The position numbers and the translations under genes are program-made. Below, piece after piece: positions 1-17,322 of a stretch of 23,964 bases of DNA; positions within the stretch are counted from its first letter, which is position 1, and every line of letters begins with the position of its first letter. Location: IMG/VR virus record IMGVR_UViG_3300047994_000615, positions 1-23,964 of that record; one strand, written 5' to 3'. A model generated the notes under the pieces. The model was not told where the DNA came from. It did no database searches and saw nothing but the letters and a program-made list of their open reading frames with translations. The DNA is from a virus.

Positions 1-1041
1 ATGGAAAAGAGTAAGGCACTGGACGCCGCCATGGCGCAGATCGAGCGCGCATTTGGCAAGGGCTCAATTATGCGTATGGGTGCTCGTGCAGGCGATGAAC
101 AGATTGAGGTGATACCCTCCGGCTCCCTTGGTCTCGATATCGCACTAGGAATTGGTGGCATGCCGAGGGGCAGAATCATCGAGATTTACGGTCCTGAGAG
201 CTCAGGCAAGACCACACTGGCGTTGCATGCGATAGCAGAGGCCCAGCGACGGGGGGGAACTTGCGCCTTTCTGGATGCCGAGCATGCGCTAGACCCCGGA
301 TATGCCCGGAAGCTCGGCGTCGATGTGGATAACCTGCTAATAAGCCAGCCAGATGCTGGTGAACAAGCCCTGGAGATAGCCGACACGCTTGTAAGGTCAG
401 GCGCTATCGATGTGCTGGTCGTCGACAGCGTCGCGGCCCTCGTCCCGCGGGCGGAACTCGAAGGGGAGATGGGGGACAGCCATATGGGCCTCCATGCCAG
501 GCTCATGAGCCAAGCCTTACGTAAGATCACGGGGAGTGTAAGCCGAAGCAATTGCATGCTGATCTTCCTCAATCAGATGCGTATGAAGATCGGCGTCATG
601 TTCGGCAACCCAGAGACCACGACAGGCGGAAATGCGCTGAAATTTTATGCTTCCATCAGGCTGGAAATTCGTCGCATCGGGCAGATCAAGGAGCGTGAGG
701 AAGTTGTGGGTAACCAGACCCGTGTGAAAGTGGTAAAGAACAAGCTGGCGCCTCCCTTCCGTCAGGTTGAATTTGACATTATGTACGGAGAAGGCATTAG
801 CAAGGTCGGCGAACTGCTGGATCTCGGCGTAAAAGCCGGTGTCGTAGAGAAATCGGGTGCTTGGTTCAGCTATGACAGCCAGCGCATCGGTCAAGGGCGA
901 GAGAATGCGAAGCAGTTCTTACGCGAGCATCGACCTTTAGCAGAAGCAATTGAAGCGAAGGTCCGCGACCACTCGGGCGTGGTAGCGAACACGATGATGG
1001 CTACCGCTGATGAAGCGGAGGACGCCGAAGCCGCCCAGTAA
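1..1041 (+). CDS. recA: RecA recombinase
   Basis: RecA is the ATP-dependent strand-exchange protein of homologous recombination and the co-protease that triggers LexA cleavage. At 346 aa it has full family length. Visible landmarks are the Walker A motif GPESSGKT (residues 64-71), the Walker B strand VLVVDS (about 138-143), the L2 DNA-binding loop region around [16 protein letters not shown] (about 195-210), and an acidic C-terminal tail ending [10 protein letters not shown]. The ATG is the first base of the window, so its ribosome-binding site, promoter and any SOS box lie outside. It is intact, with no missing key residue. The stop (1039-1041) lies 10 bp from the stop of the convergent fibre gene. 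The sequence is of alphaproteobacterial type and reads as a host housekeeping gene, not a phage recombinase. Confidence in the identity is very high; the exact taxon is inferred. Confidence 0.98.
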
Positions 1042-2961: not shown

Positions 2962-5900
2962 CTAAGCCGCCACACCGGCGCCACTGCAGGAAGAAATCCA
3001 TTTTGATCCATCGTAGAATACTCCGACCCCGGTTCCAGCGCCGGCTGCTTCACTTGGTTTTCGGCCATTACTGGCAAATGCCGTTGCGCCGGCCGCCTGC
3101 CCAATTGGAAGGCTGCTCACCGTGTACGACGGCAGAATGACAGGTCCCGAAAACGAAGGTGATACCGCGTTCGACTTGAATACATCATGCCAGGATGAGG
3201 CTCCATCAGACACTATGTGATATCGGTCATTCGGCCTAAGCACTATTGGTGCATTATCGATAGAATTCCCCGAGGCCGGCGATATGGTTACCAAGGCCGT
3301 GCCGATGTTGGAGAATGTAAACCCGGTCCCAGCTGCTACCGCGGTCGCCTGCGGTAATGTCATCGTATAGGAACCACTACCAATCAGGAACAGGATATTG
3401 CCTGCAACATAAGCCGGAACGGCCGCGCTTGCCGAGAATACATTGGCAAATCCAACTGTAAGCCCGCGGCCAACAGGAAAAGATAATATGCCTTGCGCTA
3501 GCCGGACCGTATTCGTCGTTGTATCATAATACAATTTATTGCTATTGCCTGCATCAAACGAGATGGCCTGGCCAGCAGTCATCTTGATTACCGGTGCGCT
3601 ATTGAGGGATGTCGCATTGGTTGTGTCTAGCACCGCGTTCGAGAAAGGCGTCGCGATCAAAAAGACCGATTTTGCGCTACCTGAAGATCCGGCAGAGAGA
3701 TAAACTCCGATGATGGATCCGACCTCAACGGCCGCACCTGATTTGTTTGCCTGGCCAATTACCAGGCTCTGGATAGTACGACAGTTTGCGTCATCCAATC
3801 CGTTCCCAAACCAGTCCATTTCGACGGTCAGAGATGCCGCCCCGACACCACTGGATGGCAGACCGGTGGCATCTCGATATTCCAGGCATGCCGCCCAAAG
3901 CTGCGGTTGCGGAAGTAACTGACCGCTCGATCCGGTTGTGGCAGCCTGTCTTATAGTCTGAATATAGCGTCCTACATGTTGCGCTGGTGTCGCCGCGGTA
4001 GGGGTCTGCACCCCTGCCCAAACCAAGCGATCCAATCCCCCCCAAATATAATTGTTGGGACTAGCGTATATGATGGTATCTATTCTTGACGTTGATGCAA
4101 CAGAGCCGGAGGTCCCGCCGTTGTGATTTACGATGTAACTCGATTGTTCAACAGCGAAATCTGTAGTACTGGAGCTTCCCTGGGATTTCGTTAAACCGGA
4201 CAAAGTGTTGCCGAAGACCATTCCCGGTAACGTCAATCTGGCTGGTCCAGCGCCTCCCGGAATAGACGAGCCGAGTGGCGTGCCATCCGTCAGAGAAGTC
4301 CCGTCAACAATCCACTTTACCTGCTTTGTTATCGAAATGCCCCAAGTTCCGGGTGATTGCAAGACGACGGTACCATTCGGAACGTAAATGGCAGATCCAG
4401 CCGGGGCGGCTTGGTAGGCAGCTTTGAAGGCCGCCGTATCGTCCGTTACCCCATCAATTTTCGCATTGTATGGTGGCAATGCCACATTGATGACTCGGGC
4501 CGAGTTAGGATTCAGGTCAACGTAACCTTTGGTCGCTGCTTGATTTGTTAACGTTGGGGCTGCGCATAAAGTCAGCGCTCCACTCAGTGAGCCGCCCGAC
4601 AAAGGCAGTGCCAACGCATTCTGTGAGTCAACATATTGCTTGGTTGCGACATTTTGCGGAGCGACCGGTGCCGTCAACAGCGACAGTGCGCCGGAGATTG
4701 TGCCGCCACTGAGGGGAAGCAGCGAAACGACCTGTGCGTCTACGTATCGTTTTGTGGCTGCTTGCGCGGCCACAGCCGGATCGGCTGCGAGCGAGAGGCT
4801 GCCTGAAAGGCTCCCGCCGGATAAGGCCAGTCGGCTACCGATTTGGTTATCCACGTAGTTCTTTGTTGCTGCTTGGAGGTTGCTGACGGGATCAGCGGCG
4901 AGCGTCAGAGAACCCAGCAGGGTATCGCCACTCCGAAGGACCCTCGTATCGACATACCCCTTTGTACTTGCCTGGGTTGGAGTCATGGGATCGGCAGCAA
5001 GTACAACAGGCCCCGTAAACGTTGCCCCTGCGCTGGTCAGCGTGCCCAGAAGGGCATTATCAACATAATGTTTTGTTGCTGGCTGCAGTGGCAATGTGGG
5101 ATCGCCGGCAAGGTATATGGCCCCAGTAAAACTGTCGCCCGCCCGACTGACCTTCAGGTCGACATATTGTTTCGTAGACGCTTGCAATGGCGCCGCAGGA
5201 TCTGTAGCAAGCGCAAATGCACCCACCATAGAGCCGCCGGCACGCGAGATGGTAGTCGCAACCTGGCTATCGACGTAATTCTTTGTAGCAGCGTGAGTGG
5301 GCGACGTTGGATCGGACGCAAGCGACAAAATGCCCGTTAAAGTGTCACCAGTCCTAAACAACCGCTGATCAACATAATTCTTTGTAGCGGCCTGCGCCGA
5401 TGATGTCGGATCTCCAGCCAGAATCAATGCACCTGCCAAGGTTGCGCCCGCCTTTGGGACGGTCGTGCCTATTTGAAGATCGACATAGTTCTTTGTCGCC
5501 GCTTGAAGGAGCGCGCTCGGATCAGAGGCCAGAATGAGTGCACCGTTCAAGGTATCCCCGGACCGCGAAAGCTTTTGGTCAGCGTAACGTTTGGTAGCGG
5601 CACCGAGTGTTCCAGTCGGGTCGCCGCTCAGCGTCAATAGTCCCGACATCGAACCACCGCTACTTGCAACTACAGATGCAAGGCCCACGTCAACATATGA
5701 TTTCGTAGCGGCGTCCAGCGGACTCAAGGGCAAGGATACAAGGCTCAGAGTTCCGGATAATGAACCTCCTGTCAGTGGTAGTACTGTAGATACTTGTTGA
5801 TCAACGTATGCCTTGTTTGCAGCCTGGCTGGCTGTAAGCGGAGCGCCACTCAGGGTAATTGGCCCCGTAAGGGTACCGCCTGTTTTCAACAGTGTGTTTG

Positions 5901-6348
5901 CGGCTAAACTGCCGAGCGTAACGACACTCGTGCTACCCGTGGGTGTGACCACGGCTTGAGACAAATTGATGTTAGTCGCGGCCGATAATCCATTGACCAA
6001 CTGGGAATAAGTGATTGCAACGCTCGTCCCGGATTGTTGAAACGGAATGAGGTCAGCCATGCCAGGTACTGCACCTAAGGGAAGACTTCCGATGGTGAAA
6101 GGTGCAGCGGTTGCAGCGAGAGTATTGCCCTGAAGGACCAGATTTTGCCCAACCGCAATTAGCTCGGGCGATCCGACGCCAGTTGAAGCGCGGCCAAGCA
6201 AGCTACCTGTGGATAATGATAGCTGTGCCTGAACTCCGTTCAACACCTGAGCGCGCGTAATCTTACGCGCTATTCCTCCCTGGCTGACGAGGAGTTCGTC
6301 AGAATCCGAGGCAGATGGCGCTTGGGCAAGTTGATCAATTGTGGGCAT
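2962..6348 (-). CDS. Long repetitive tail fibre / tailspike
   Basis: This is a 1128-aa tail fibre. I place the start at the ATG at 6348 (MPTIDQLAQ), preceded by AGAGA, because it aligns with the N-terminus of the neighbouring fibre; an in-frame GTG at 6366 is less likely. Residues 1-80 are the shared attachment module. A second 'IPFQQSG...ITYSQL' motif lies near 101-117. Residues about 155-612 carry 13 repeats of the type 'SGGSLSG.L.L..DP....AATK.YVD', the class of phage tail-fibre repeat that forms trimeric stalks. Residues about 625-700 resemble the entry of a pectate-lyase-like beta-helix (DGVTDDTAAFKAAY ... IYVPNGTV). The C-terminus includes GRKPSEAAGAGTGVGVFYDG, a frequent phage fibre ending. 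Polysaccharide-degrading activity is possible but no catalytic residues can be assigned. The gene follows a decayed transposon region, so its transcription may no longer be purely operonic. Confidence 0.88.
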   Translation of the reverse strand: MPTIDQLAQAPSASDSDELLVSQGGIARKITRAQVLNGVQAQLSLSTGSLLGRASTGVGSPELIAVGQNLVLQGNTLAATAAPFTIGSLPLGAVPGMADLIPFQQSGTSVAITYSQLVNGLSAATNINLSQAVVTPTGSTSVVTLGSLAANTLLKTGGTLTGPITLSGAPLTASQAANKAYVDQQVSTVLPLTGGSLSGTLSLVSLPLSPLDAATKSYVDVGLASVVASSGGSMSGLLTLSGDPTGTLGAATKRYADQKLSRSGDTLNGALILASDPSALLQAATKNYVDLQIGTTVPKAGATLAGALILAGDPTSSAQAATKNYVDQRLFRTGDTLTGILSLASDPTSPTHAATKNYVDSQVATTISRAGGSMVGAFALATDPAAPLQASTKQYVDLKVSRAGDSFTGAIYLAGDPTLPLQPATKHYVDNALLGTLTSAGATFTGPVVLAADPMTPTQASTKGYVDTRVLRSGDTLLGSLTLAADPVSNLQAATKNYVDNQIGSRLALSGGSLSGSLSLAADPAVAAQAATKRYVDAQVVSLLPLSGGTISGALSLLTAPVAPQNVATKQYVDSQNALALPLSGGSLSGALTLCAAPTLTNQAATKGYVDLNPNSARVINVALPPYNAKIDGVTDDTAAFKAAYQAAPAGSAIYVPNGTVVLQSPGTWGISITKQVKWIVDGTSLTDGTPLGSSIPGGAGPARLTLPGMVFGNTLSGLTKSQGSSSTTDFAVEQSSYIVNHNGGTSGSVASTSRIDTIIYASPNNYIWGGLDRLVWAGVQTPTAATPAQHVGRYIQTIRQAATTGSSGQLLPQPQLWAACLEYRDATGLPSSGVGAASLTVEMDWFGNGLDDANCRTIQSLVIGQANKSGAAVEVGSIIGVYLSAGSSGSAKSVFLIATPFSNAVLDTTNATSLNSAPVIKMTAGQAISFDAGNSNKLYYDTTTNTVRLAQGILSFPVGRGLTVGFANVFSASAAVPAYVAGNILFLIGSGSYTMTLPQATAVAAGTGFTFSNIGTALVTISPASGNSIDNAPIVLRPNDRYHIVSDGASSWHDVFKSNAVSPSFSGPVILPSYTVSSLPIGQAAGATAFASNGRKPSEAAGAGTGVGVFYDGSKWISSCSGAGVAA
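4513..5886 (-). repeat. Thirteen tail-fibre repeats with 37/33-residue alternation
   Basis: Within the long fibre, the motif (A/S)TK.YVD and its close variants occurs 13 times. The tyrosine-to-tyrosine spacings I counted are 37, 37, 33, 37, 33, 37, 33, 37, 33, 37, 37 and 37 residues. The 4-residue difference always falls between YVD and the following GG/GD turn: long units read like 'QVSTVLPLTGGSLSG' and short ones like 'KLSRSGDTLNG'. The central part is thus built of 70-residue (210-bp) double units. Nucleotide identity between units looks moderate, so the expansion is not recent. Confidence 0.85.
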
Positions 6349-6412
6349 TGAATTTTCTCTGGCCACCTAATACAGAAAAGTGGCTATTTGCTAATTGATT
6401 AATGATATTGCC

Positions 6413-13739: not shown

Positions 13740-14651
13740 TTAGAAAGGACTGAGCCGTGATCTGGGGTGAGCTGCACGTGGATCGACGCCTGTTATGCCA
13801 GCTTGGGGTCGCGAGAGTTCCTGCTCCAGATGGGTCACCACCCATTGTCCCAGGACAGAACCGTCAAGAACGAGTCTACCGCTCTGTCGTCTTTGCATTT
13901 CAACATCGGAGGCTCGCCCTCGAGGTGCATTTTGGGGGAGTAGGTCCGAATATGATCCAGTGACCGTTCCACTTCGAGGAGAGTAAAGGTGCTTTTGCTC
14001 CCTCTCATGACCCTTGAAGTCAGGACTCCCCACTATGGGCCGGTCATTTTCTTGCGGAGGACTAACGCGCGTTAATGGTACTGCAAGAATGGGAGGAAGC
14101 GATGGCGCAAAGGCGCGATGACTGTATACGGCTTGGATACCAAAAGCCTTGGTGTCGATAGGGCCCCTGACCGCAAACCGTTTCAGCAGGTCGTTGCTGG
14201 GTCTCCGCATAAGCGTGTTGGCGAAGGGCGTTGAGGTCCTGTCTGGCTGGTCAGATGGCAACCAATGAGATTGGTAGGGCTGCCGGCGCTGATCCCCAAA
14301 ACGTGCCTGTAGCACGGCCGCAGAGGCTTCAGTACCTTCGGTCGTCGGCCTAATACCCGTCAAGGGATCCGCATTACCAAACGAAGCGAGGCGCCCTTTG
14401 TTGGGCAACTCCATTGGAAATTCGGGTAAACGCCCTGCCGAGGACGCCACGAGTAAGCCTGCCGCCTTGGATGCGTCGCCATGGGAACGAAGGATCGGCG
14501 CAAGATGTCGATACCTCCTGAATGTAAGGAGCCTTTGAAGTCTCGCTACGGATGACAGCATTTGTTGAAAATCACGGTCGCATAATGAACGAGACGTAAG
14601 GCGTGCCGTTCTGTTAGCGGTAAGCCCGGACTTTCTTACAGCGGACGGCAA
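13740..14651 (-). CDS. Short protein in tape-measure position
   Basis: A protein of about 303 aa at the place where P2-type phages encode the tail tape measure (P2 T is about 800 aa). I suggest the TTG at 14651, which has AAGG upstream and overlaps the end of the frameshifted chaperone product; the open frame itself extends up to 14729 and a conservative ATG start is at 14561. The sequence is rich in Arg, Pro and Ser. A helical N-terminal region (FQQMLSSVARLQRLLTFRRY) is followed by a long proline-rich middle with no obvious coiled coil or membrane segment. The C-terminus reads LVLDGSVLGQWVVTHLEQEL then SRPQAGITGVDPRA, a defined-looking motif. It may be a very short ruler or the remnant of one. 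Function is inferred from position only. Confidence 0.5.
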   Translation of the reverse strand: MPSAVRKSGLTANRTARLTSRSLCDRDFQQMLSSVARLQRLLTFRRYRHLAPILRSHGDASKAAGLLVASSAGRLPEFPMELPNKGRLASFGNADPLTGIRPTTEGTEASAAVLQARFGDQRRQPYQSHWLPSDQPDRTSTPFANTLMRRPSNDLLKRFAVRGPIDTKAFGIQAVYSHRAFAPSLPPILAVPLTRVSPPQENDRPIVGSPDFKGHEREQKHLYSPRSGTVTGSYSDLLPQNAPRGRASDVEMQRRQSGRLVLDGSVLGQWVVTHLEQELSRPQAGITGVDPRAAHPRSRLSPF

Positions 14652-14655
14652 TGCG

Positions 14656-14835
14656 CTATTCTGCCTTCGCCGGGATCCAATCAAACCTGGTCCAGTCAAA
14701 TGCGTGTCCTTCAAGTTGACCAAAGACAATTACGAATGCATTCCGGTCTGTCGGAGAAAGCGAAAAGGCAACGTCGAATGGCACCCCGTTCCGTACAAGG
14801 TAGAGACAGTCTATTAGAACCGGGTGCCTGGCTAG
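14656..14835 (-). CDS. -1 frameshift extension of tail chaperone (E' part)
   Basis: After slippage at GGGAAAC the -1 frame stays open for 59 residues to a TAG at 14656-14658. It begins LARHPVLIDCLYLVRNGVPF, goes on with DVAFSLSPTDRNAF, and ends FDWTRFDWIPAKAE. The text looks like a genuine folded domain (hydrophobic and Trp-rich; 'LSPTDR.AF.I.FG' type) and has no start codon of its own, so it can be made only by recoding. The full long product would be about 170 aa. In P2 (E+E') and lambda (G-GT) the extension binds the tape measure or tube while the common N-terminal part coats the ruler. It overlaps the 5' part of the next gene's open frame. Confidence 0.8.
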   Translation of the reverse strand, partial: LARHPVLIDCLYLVRNGVPFDVAFSLSPTDRNAFVIVFGQLEGHAFDWTRFDWIPAKAE

Positions 14836-14841
14836 TTTCCC
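14780..14841 (-). promoter_or_regulatory. -1 programmed ribosomal frameshift signal
   Basis: On the minus strand the heptamer GGGAAAC (14841 to 14835) is read in phase as G GGA AAC and is followed at once by the zero-frame TAG. A 6-nt spacer (TAGCCA) leads to a stem: GGCACCC (14828-14822) pairs perfectly with GGGTGCC (14786-14780). After a G-G mismatch, GTT and AAC can add three inner pairs, with about 27 nt in the loop. Slippery sequence, spacing and stem all match known -1 sites of phage tail genes. Confidence 0.85.
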
Positions 14842-15167
14842 AGGGATGTCTCGCTTGTTTCATGCGTGCTTTCCAAGGCCTCGGCAATTGCCGTAACGCC
14901 GATGTCTCCCAATTTTGCGATGATATTTTCGATCTGTGCTTCACTGGAAGGCTGAGGCGTCGGTATCGCGTCAATCTTGCCGACGGTAAATGCCAGGATG
15001 GCCATTGACAGCCAGGCATCATTTTTTGAGAGCTCGGGCCCGGCTGCCTTCAAGAGCCTAAGGGTGTCGAGCGCATTTGGCTTCCGGAATTCTATTATTC
15101 GGCCACGCGCATCCGTCACATTCAGAGTTTGGTTTGCTTCGTCTACGATCCGCTTCGAGGGCTCCAT
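14832..15167 (-). CDS. Tail assembly chaperone (short form, gpE-like)
   Basis: This 111-aa protein between tube and tape-measure position has the properties of a tail assembly chaperone, which coats the tape measure before tube assembly. The N-terminus includes RIIEFRKPNALDTLRLLKAA, a text common in E-like chaperones ('...V.D..GR.I..RK...L..L.LL...'). It starts at an ATG overlapping the tube stop (ATGA) and ends SLGN before TAG. The last two sense codons, GGA AAC, are part of a -1 slippery heptamer, so this is the short product of a two-product gene; the long product is described separately. Position, size and recoding signal agree with the family. Confidence 0.85.
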   Translation of the reverse strand: MEPSKRIVDEANQTLNVTDARGRIIEFRKPNALDTLRLLKAAGPELSKNDAWLSMAILAFTVGKIDAIPTPQPSSEAQIENIIAKLGDIGVTAIAEALESTHETSETSLGN

Positions 15168-15595
15168 CAGATCCGCCGCTTCCTGGAAGCAAAAAAGTCC
15201 AATTTCTGTCGTACGCTCGCCTCACCTTTCCAACTTCCAGCATTCGTCAGCTTGAAGACAACGCCGTCGAACTGATAGGTCGACACAGATCCATCAAGCT
15301 CGGTTATGTACTGATACATCGTGCTCGGTTGAGTCGCAGTGCCGTTATAGAAATTCTGCTCTATTGAGGCAACAAAGTCGTCAAGCACGGATGTTCCGCG
15401 TTCGACTTCGAAGCCTCCCTCCCATCCTTTGGGTAGCTCGGTTCCCAGTTGCACCCCATCCAGGCGGCTTACACGCACGGAGTTCGTGAGTTGCCGACTC
15501 TCGAACCCGGTGACATGCGTCAGATCCACCCTGCCATTCGGTCCCATAATGACTAATTGTGTATCACGCCCAATCGAAAAGGCTGTCAGGCTCAT
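15167..15595 (-). CDS. Tail tube protein
   Basis: This 142-aa inner tube protein of a contractile tail lies immediately downstream of the sheath. The sequence has the P2 FII / phage tail tube pattern: MSLTAFSIGRDTQLVI, then VDLTHVTGFESRQL, GWEGGFEVERGTSVLDDFVA and a C-terminal FKLTNAGSWKGEASVRQKLD. Its size is in the usual range (about 140-170 aa). The ATG at 15595 has TAGGAG seven bases upstream, one of the best ribosome-binding sites of the operon, fitting a protein needed in many copies. Its stop overlaps the chaperone start. Confidence 0.88.
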   Translation of the reverse strand: MSLTAFSIGRDTQLVIMGPNGRVDLTHVTGFESRQLTNSVRVSRLDGVQLGTELPKGWEGGFEVERGTSVLDDFVASIEQNFYNGTATQPSTMYQYITELDGSVSTYQFDGVVFKLTNAGSWKGEASVRQKLDFFASRKRRI

Positions 15596-15605
15596 CTGAT
15601 CGCTC

Positions 15606-17168
15606 CTAACTCACTTGACCCTGGGGAAGGGTTTGTTTAGAGATTTGCACGGTCTGGCCTCCCTCAACATTGACGATAAAGCGTTCATTGATTGCTTGAT
15701 ATTGAACCTGTACATCTGCCTGAACGTAGCCTAGACCAGTCCTTGATGCGGGATTGTTGCTGGCGTCGCAGATAACACTGAAGGGCATCGCACCCGAGGC
15801 GGTTCCCAGCATCCCCTGTGATAGCATGTTATTTAGAAATGACGTTAATGTGGCGCGAATATTTTGGAACAGGTCGTTGTTTATGACCTGTCCGACGTAC
15901 TGACCCATTCCTGCGGCCAAACTTTCGGCAATATAGTTTGTAAGCCGCGTGTAGTTGTCACCGCAAACCGCACTATTGGAAGAGGTGTTATGTCCTGCCC
16001 GCACGCCCCAAAAGGCGCCTCCTGGCTGCGGTGTGCATATGACATCCAAGCCTGCTTCAAACAATGTCCCAAGTTCCGCATCCGAATAGGTGGTTGCTTG
16101 GCCTGAGTTGGGGGAACCGGTCTTTTGACTCGCTATGATGCCATAAATGGGCTTGTTGAGGCTTGATTGTTCGGGTGATAAATTGGCGAGCCGCCCGGCT
16201 ACGAATCCCTGCGGTGACACCAATCGTATCGTCTGATTCGTCTGGTCGCTCCACCAAAGCCAATCCCCAAACATGAGCTTGGCCGCGTAGCTATCCACTC
16301 CGGCTTGTGTTAGGGTCGAAACGGCGTTCGCAATCGTATCGCCCGCTGGACCGGCCAAAATCATATAGATGCCTTCTCCCAACCCGAAGCTGGCCTGTGT
16401 AGACCATGTCGTGGAGTCATCGCAGTCCGCCAGCAGTGCGATCCCGCAGCTCTGGTTCCGGAGCGCGTACATCCCTGTCCTGAAGACGCCGTCGATGCCA
16501 ACAAGGTTCATGCTCCCAACCGCGGAGGCGCCGTCCGACCCTGGACTGGTGGAACCGAGTGTCAAGGTGAAGGGTGAAGGTGACGCCGTCGTCCCCCCCG
16601 TTGTTGCGATCACGAATGCAGATGGTCCACGCTGAGGTCCCTGCCCAGTGTTAACGGCGCTCGTGAGGCCGGTCCAAAAAGCTAAGCCGTCACCGATAAG
16701 TCCATCATATACCTCAGGGGCGTAGCCAGGAATGCTTACCGTCAGCTTCCATGTCGCCGGCTTGGATGACTGCGTGAGTGATATGGTCACCAGGTTGCCA
16801 AGCGACCCTGTATACAGTGCTGTGAAACTGGCGTTGGTTCCGTTCACAACCGATGATGCAGCGCTATCGGTTCCGTCGGTGACTCGCACGCACCGGAAAT
16901 TCTGTGCCCCCTGCTGGACGGCCGTCGCAACGTGTGTGCCCATGTCGTACTTGCGGGGCATGACAGGCCCGAACGCGGCGGAATAGTCCGCCATGCTGCT
17001 AACGATCGTCGGCTGGTCGACTGGCCCCCACGAGGCCGATCCAACAATACCTGTGATGCTGGTGGGAACGCCGTTTAATACCAGATTCTGGGGTGAGACG
17101 ATTTGAACATATAGATTCGGAACGACAAGCGAGGCTGTGTTAACAGATCCAAATTGAACAACGGGCAT
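15606..17168 (-). CDS. Contractile tail sheath protein
   Basis: This is a 520-aa tail sheath. The start is set at the ATG at 17168 (MPVVQFGSVN) because it has AAAGG 8 nt upstream; an in-frame upstream start (17222) would lie inside the 49-aa gene. The N-terminus shows the sheath pattern PTSITGIVGSASWGPVDQPT with DYSAAFGPV following. The C-terminal part shows YVGQVINNDLFQNIRATLTS, LTSFLNNMLSQGML and VQYQAINERFIVNVEGG, the conserved C-terminal domain that meshes with neighbouring subunits and the tube. A variable beta-rich middle (about 150-260) is normal for the family. It defines the element as a myovirus-type (contractile) phage or derivative. Confidence 0.93.
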   Translation of the reverse strand: MPVVQFGSVNTASLVVPNLYVQIVSPQNLVLNGVPTSITGIVGSASWGPVDQPTIVSSMADYSAAFGPVMPRKYDMGTHVATAVQQGAQNFRCVRVTDGTDSAASSVVNGTNASFTALYTGSLGNLVTISLTQSSKPATWKLTVSIPGYAPEVYDGLIGDGLAFWTGLTSAVNTGQGPQRGPSAFVIATTGGTTASPSPFTLTLGSTSPGSDGASAVGSMNLVGIDGVFRTGMYALRNQSCGIALLADCDDSTTWSTQASFGLGEGIYMILAGPAGDTIANAVSTLTQAGVDSYAAKLMFGDWLWWSDQTNQTIRLVSPQGFVAGRLANLSPEQSSLNKPIYGIIASQKTGSPNSGQATTYSDAELGTLFEAGLDVICTPQPGGAFWGVRAGHNTSSNSAVCGDNYTRLTNYIAESLAAGMGQYVGQVINNDLFQNIRATLTSFLNNMLSQGMLGTASGAMPFSVICDASNNPASRTGLGYVQADVQVQYQAINERFIVNVEGGQTVQISKQTLPQGQVS

Positions 17169-17172
17169 GCGA

Positions 17173-17322
17173 TTAACCTTTGGTACTTGTGGGATGCGCG
17201 ACTTTATTGACGCAGTGCGCAACGCCGGATTTCAGTACCTGGTCAACCTTGTTCAGGTCAGTGATCAGATCACCACGCACGTATGTTTCGAACGCATTCT
17301 TGACGACTAGATAGATACTCAT
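17173..17322 (-). CDS. Small 49-aa phage protein upstream of sheath
   Basis: This short gene runs from the ATG at 17322 to a TAA at 17173-17175. The product opens MSIYLVVKNAFETYVRGDLI, then TDLNKVDQVLKSGVAHCVNK, and ends STKG. The pattern '(L/V)VVK.(A)F..Y..GD.ITD...V..VL.S...H.V.KV' resembles small proteins found next to capsid or sheath genes in proteobacterial phages; their function is unknown. It fits tightly between the 269-aa neck gene and the sheath, whose ribosome-binding site lies over its last codons (AAAGGTTAA). Coding status is supported by position, spacing and the family-like text. Confidence 0.72.
   Translation of the reverse strand: MSIYLVVKNAFETYVRGDLITDLNKVDQVLKSGVAHCVNKVAHPTSTKG

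Follow-up and report, generated by a model that had tools for sequence, protein, structure and literature searches.

Two-product tail assembly chaperones that arise through a −1 shift are long established for lambda, P2 and numerous tailed phages. In lambda, the common part of the chaperone binds the tape measure protein, while the extension binds the tube protein (PMC5009743). The slip site of P2 and of P2-like Burkholderia phages is TTTTTTG, without a predicted hairpin, and downstream structure is described as rare (PMC3091744). The heptamers AAAAAAC and GGGAAAC have been described in the tape-measure chaperone genes of the Caulobacter phages phiCbK and Colossus, respectively, which are also alphaproteobacterial phages but siphophages, and the passage on these sites mentions no stem (PMC3556154).

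Here, we describe a locus on the minus strand of a viral DNA of 23,964 nucleotides (IMG/VR record IMGVR_UViG_3300047994_000615; the whole stretch is called the window), in which the gene of a tail assembly chaperone very probably uses a programmed −1 frameshift to produce two proteins from one start, as judged from sequence comparison. Like lambda gpG/gpGT, the gene follows a tube-like gene and precedes an ORF in the tape-measure position, has its −1 slip site near the 3′ end and is predicted to give a short and a long form, and the lambda site GGGAAAG is one base off the GGGAAAC of the window. Unlike lambda, the A-site codon is AAC instead of AAG, and the extension has 59 aa instead of a long T domain. 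The locus also resembles P2 gpE/gpE+E′ of the FETUD operon in its contractile-tail order of sheath, tube, chaperone with −1 extension and next ORF, but it differs in having a GGGAAAC-type heptamer and a conserved hairpin where P2 has TTTTTTG and no predicted hairpin (PMC3091744). A conserved 3′ hairpin also sets it apart from certain tailed-phage cases described without stimulators (PMC5009743). The locus of the Komagataeibacter phages phiKX1 and phiKX2 is homologous to that of the window.

No paper describing this phage set was found in the literature collection searched. The locus is apparently an undescribed case of the known −1 frameshift chaperone type, an established device rather than a novel sort of system, and it is somewhat unusual in combining a deeply conserved 3′ hairpin with a second slip codon that is AAC or AAT and never AAG. 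With it, the dual-product tail chaperones gain a widespread set of contractile-tail phages, apparently undescribed, whose hosts are Acetobacteraceae and related bacteria.

Organization of the probable frameshift site

The zero frame ends in CTG GGA AAC TAG, and the coordinates, the phase of the heptamer, the 7-bp stem six bases further on and the open −1 frame of 59 residues are all as the first-pass annotation had placed them (Table 1). GGGAAAC occurs once in the whole window, both strands counted. The translation of the −1 extension is LARHPVLIDCLYLVRNGVPFDVAFSLSPTDRNAFVIVFGQLEGHAFDWTRFDWIPAKAE, and its joining to the zero frame gives a predicted long form of 170 aa. The extension had been called Trp-rich and free of any start codon; it does hold two Trp, which makes for mild richness only, and an in-frame GTG lies at 14784-14782, within the 3′ arm of the stem. 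The stem has 7 bp in the window and 8 bp, with the 5′ arm GGCACCCC, in most relatives. Folded alone, the stem of the window gives a z of −1.8, with 8 of 200 shuffles folding equally well. Since this fold is unremarkable and an open frame of 59 codons carries little weight by itself, the case for frameshifting rests on conservation.

Table 1. Features of the chaperone locus and its neighbors, in window coordinates
Feature	Position	Strand	Basis
Tail sheath protein	15606..17222	-	phrog_23 tail sheath, E 1e-51
Tail tube-like protein, 142 aa, adjoining upstream	15167..15595	-	phrog_12993
Zero-frame putative tail assembly chaperone, short form, 111 aa	14832..15167	-	ORF; stop TAG 14834-14832
Slippery heptamer G_GGA_AAC, adjoining the zero-frame stop	14835..14841	-	X_XXY_YYZ phase
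Spacer TAGCCA, 6 nt, first 3 bases being the zero-frame stop	14829..14834	-	sequence and relatives
Stem 5′ arm GGCACCC, putative stimulator	14822..14828	-	fold conservation; frozen synonymous sites
Stem 3′ arm GGGTGCC, putative stimulator	14780..14786	-	fold conservation; 35-nt loop between 7-bp arms
−1 frame extension, 59 codons and TAG 14658-14656	14656..14835	-	−1 frame and dN/dS in relatives
Next ORF, tape-measure position, 329 aa as mechanically called	13740..14729	-	ORF

Conservation of the signal and selection on the hairpin

Relatives were recruited with the neighboring tail-tube gene as bait, which is independent of the signal because the tube protein carries no information on it. The sample comprised 162 loci, namely 80 viral contigs, 80 GTDB genome loci, phage phiKX1 and the window, and the hosts were mainly Acetobacteraceae. 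Both parts of the gene were readable in 153 loci, while nine lacked one or both in the available sequence; as near-copies were present, 137 distinct signal regions were kept, and the tree was built from 130 proteins. The extension lies in the −1 frame in all 153 loci and an in-phase XXXYYYZ heptamer precedes it in 152, being GGGAAAC in 127, AAAAAAC in 19, CCCAAAC in four and GGGAAAT in two. Three types of XXX (GGG, AAA and CCC) are thus followed by nothing but AAC or AAT, which fits the prediction of tandem slippage. The 6-nt spacer is invariant among relatives retaining the window-type stem. In phiKX1, at 22% identity in the zero frame and 37% in the extension, the site reads A_AAA_AAC TGA with the 6-nt spacer and the same stem kept. 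The first-pass annotation had named conservation of heptamer, spacer and stem in relatives among its checks, and because the signal is kept in nearly all relatives examined, we regard it as real.

The sole exception among the 153 loci, L225 (site at about 5765-5790), has the −1 extension and the 3′ arm but neither the heptamer nor the 5′ arm, and it is possibly a decaying prophage. A separate pattern scan, signal-biased by design, covered at least 120 stretches, and 162 matches were scored over those and the genome loci; among the matches listed, the loop between the 7-bp arms was 35 nt in 161 of 162. The only 34-nt loop among the matches listed belongs to L113 (3559-3616, minus strand), where a one-base loss, either a mutation or a sequencing error, scrambles the extension frame. 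The tail module can be present more than once in a single bacterial genome: L247 and L248, both on one contig, are such copies together with L282, L232 and L233 share one genome, and CAIYCW01 has at least three copies.

The arms of the stem encode the conserved residues RHP and GVP, so their conservation alone proves nothing, and the signal could be real with the stem a mere by-product of these two motifs and not a stimulator. Such a reading agrees with the modest single-sequence fold of the window, but we consider it unlikely, because the third positions of the arms are frozen while their neighbors are free. Synonymous divergence (pS) is 0.11 in the stem codons vs 0.52 and 0.62 outside, a drop of about fivefold, and the mean synonymous codon identity is 0.89 vs 0.43. 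The glycine of the stem is encoded by GGG and its valine by GTG in 59 of 60 cases each, whereas a variety of codons occurs in the other Gly and Val columns. Of the 137 distinct signal regions, 108 have a perfect 8-bp stem, and two-sided changes retain the same stem pair in L025 (GGCACGCC/GGCGTGCC; C-G to G-C) and in L215 (GGCACTCC/GGAGTGCC; C-G to U-A). The compensation in L025 weighs less, since its truncated extension and very long branch suggest that this locus may be decaying. In 41 diverse sequences, 89.3% of the pair cells are standard vs 32-50% in slid structures, and all five structure measures lie above nearly all shuffles.

The by-product reading also has to account for a replaced hairpin. 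In L063, L070 and L078 the window-type stem is absent, and a 15-codon insert folds into a different hairpin of up to 11 bp that starts about 6 nt past the heptamer, the element having turned over without a change of location. The replacement hairpin (L063 3839-4054, L078 3785-4000, and L070) accompanies the heptamers CCCAAAC or GGGAAAT. Judging by these comparisons, the stem is under selection at the RNA level and makes a hairpin at a fixed short spacing, a dnaX-like architecture and a putative stimulator of the slip. The frozen codons, compensatory pairs and swapped hairpin make the evolution of a presumed stimulatory RNA visible.

Translation of the extension and the predicted mechanism

Pairwise Nei-Gojobori counts among 125 distinct sequences gave the extension a dN/dS of 0.17 when read in the −1 frame; the zero-frame and third registers gave 1.55 and 2.2, respectively. 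The extension is, on these ratios, under strong purifying selection as protein, the outcome that the first-pass annotation had named as a test of its proposal. An alternative is two separate genes, the second translated by re-initiation or coupling from an internal start of its own (GTG 14784 in the window; ATG or TTG in relatives). This reading gains from the in-frame GTG, found in 144 of 144 relatives counted, and from the record of phiKX1, where two hypothetical proteins are annotated, the second from an internal ATG, and no frameshift is recorded; that an ORF caller would go wrong at such a gene had been foreseen. It is nevertheless very improbable. The segment from the heptamer to the GTG is conserved as protein (dN/dS 0.135, stem codons excluded), and purifying selection upstream of the GTG implies that translation enters the extension from upstream and not from the GTG itself. 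Moreover, 61 of the 144 relatives (about 42%) have no start-like codon before the GTG, the GTG is accounted for as part of the stem arm, and two genes would leave the heptamer unexplained.

A shift made by the polymerase, with transcriptional slippage yielding frame-changed mRNAs, would best suit the AAAAAAC sites (19 of 152), which have six A in a row. GGGAAAC and CCCAAAC, with runs too short for polymerase slippage, make up 131 of the 152, and a stem at a fixed downstream distance fits the ribosome, so we hold this explanation to be extremely remote. The split could also stem from an assembly error or the loss of one base in a single long gene, but nothing speaks for this beyond the split itself, and it is refuted by the identical split codon in 153 of 153 independently assembled loci, including the isolates Rhodopila globiformis and phiKX1.

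For programmed ribosomal frameshifting, we infer the slippage, how efficient it is and what each product does, and the process may be pictured as follows. Most ribosomes would terminate at the TAG at 14834-14832 and release the 111-aa chaperone. In a minority, the tRNAs on GGA and AAC would re-pair with GGG and AAA one base back, a slip that an encounter with the hairpin 6 nt downstream would favor, and these ribosomes would add the 59 residues of the −1 frame to give the long form of 170 aa. If lambda gpG/gpGT is a guide, coating of the tape measure protein would fall to the short form or common part and recruitment of the tail tube protein to the extension, with the ratio of short to long product set by the slip. 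The conserved arrangement gives a rule for automatic annotation (heptamer, then 6 nt, GGCACCCC, about 34 nt and GGGGTGCC) of a gene previously entered as two unrelated hypothetical proteins.

The second slip codon is AAC or AAT in all 152 heptamers and AAG in none, and the zero-frame stop is found only at +0 (112 loci) or +18 nt (40 loci) after the heptamer. The window has stops at both positions, 14834-14832 and 14816-14814. Both stop sites derive from conserved extension codons (Leu-Ser/Ala and Leu-Ile), and the stop position changes about 12 times on the 130-protein tree, at least 11 of the changes being forced by supported branches, with the bootstrap unsettled. In E. coli, where there is a single lysine tRNA, reviews name AAG as the shifty codon (PMC5009743). 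Rhodopila globiformis, which hosts close relatives, carries tRNA-Lys UUU and CUU together with tRNA-Asn GUU, and its two lysine tRNAs are consistent with the avoidance of AAG, as seen in this one genome. The idea is confounded, because the final C of the heptamer doubles as the first position of a conserved Leu codon. We therefore offer only as a tentative proposal, more doubtful than probable, that frameshifting depends throughout the family on AAC and on a near-fixed hairpin, exchanged for another in one lineage, that tRNA-Lys(CUU) makes AAG a poor slip codon and that the +0/+18 stop perhaps tunes the product ratio. The stop toggle and the AAC-only choice would provide handles on how hosts shape slip sites.

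Probable chaperone identity and neighboring genes

The first-pass annotation had called the gene a tail chaperone, and this identity is supported by P2-like gene order, a predicted fold like that of the HK97 chaperone and weak profile matches to tail assembly chaperone families. The tail gene order is P2-like, with sheath, tube, chaperone, next ORF and further tail genes. On the minus strand, terminase is followed by the tail sheath gene, the tube-like gene, the chaperone gene and the 329-aa ORF, then by a 229-aa ORF and a 61-aa ORF with baseplate-like matches, a hub-like tail protein, a gpV-like baseplate assembly protein and Baseplate_J. Upstream of the chaperone gene, the tube-like and sheath genes are clear, and the downstream ORF is short and without family match.

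The zero frame matches phrog_20383, a family of unknown function (E 8e-21), and relatives weakly match the chaperone families phrog_508 (12 of 54) and phrog_344 (4 of 54). From an alignment that left out phiKX1, AlphaFold2 gave the zero frame a model with a pLDDT of 88, whose best PDB match is the HK97 tail assembly chaperone 2ob9. The scores of this match are moderate (Foldseek E 0.021, prob 0.97; VIA Z 5.2, rmsd 4.3 over 95 residues), and HK97, with a similar fold at 8-15% identity, has a non-contractile tail. Among the BFVD viral models, annotated tail assembly chaperones recur in the matches of the zero-frame model. These models support a chaperone-like fold for the short form. The extension is modeled confidently as a small helical domain (pLDDT 89), and its comparison with the PDB returned no solved-structure match, unrelated rows at Z 2-2.5 being all that appeared. 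With hhalign, the zero frame showed no significant match to lambda G or P2 E, each used as a single sequence, profile searches of Pfam and NCBIfam with the zero frame and extension gave nothing useful, and tblastn of the zero frame against annotated phage records gave no match; phiKX1 and phiKX2 alone were found among these records, through the extension or the tube.

The start of the next ORF had been expected to need revision, and its mechanically called TTG at 14729 does sit inside the extension, with a 71-nt overlap. In the close relatives L203 and L205-L208, the first start codon of this ORF lies 12-33 nt past the extension stop. The start at 14729 is thus probably wrong, and TTG 14651 and ATG 14561 are candidates. 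The ORF (13740-14729) has about 300 aa with conservation mainly in the last 35-50 residues, and if it is the tape measure, its length would mean a very short contractile tail; otherwise it would be something else.

A complete recA begins at the first base of the window (1-1041, plus strand), opposite to the phage structural genes. With this gene at its edge, the record resembles a provirus cut at a gene boundary next to chromosomal recA. The minus strand at 2962-6366 encodes a tail-fibre-like protein in which an AATKNYVD-type unit is repeated about ten times, and the protein after it (1052-2920) has fibronectin type III domains.
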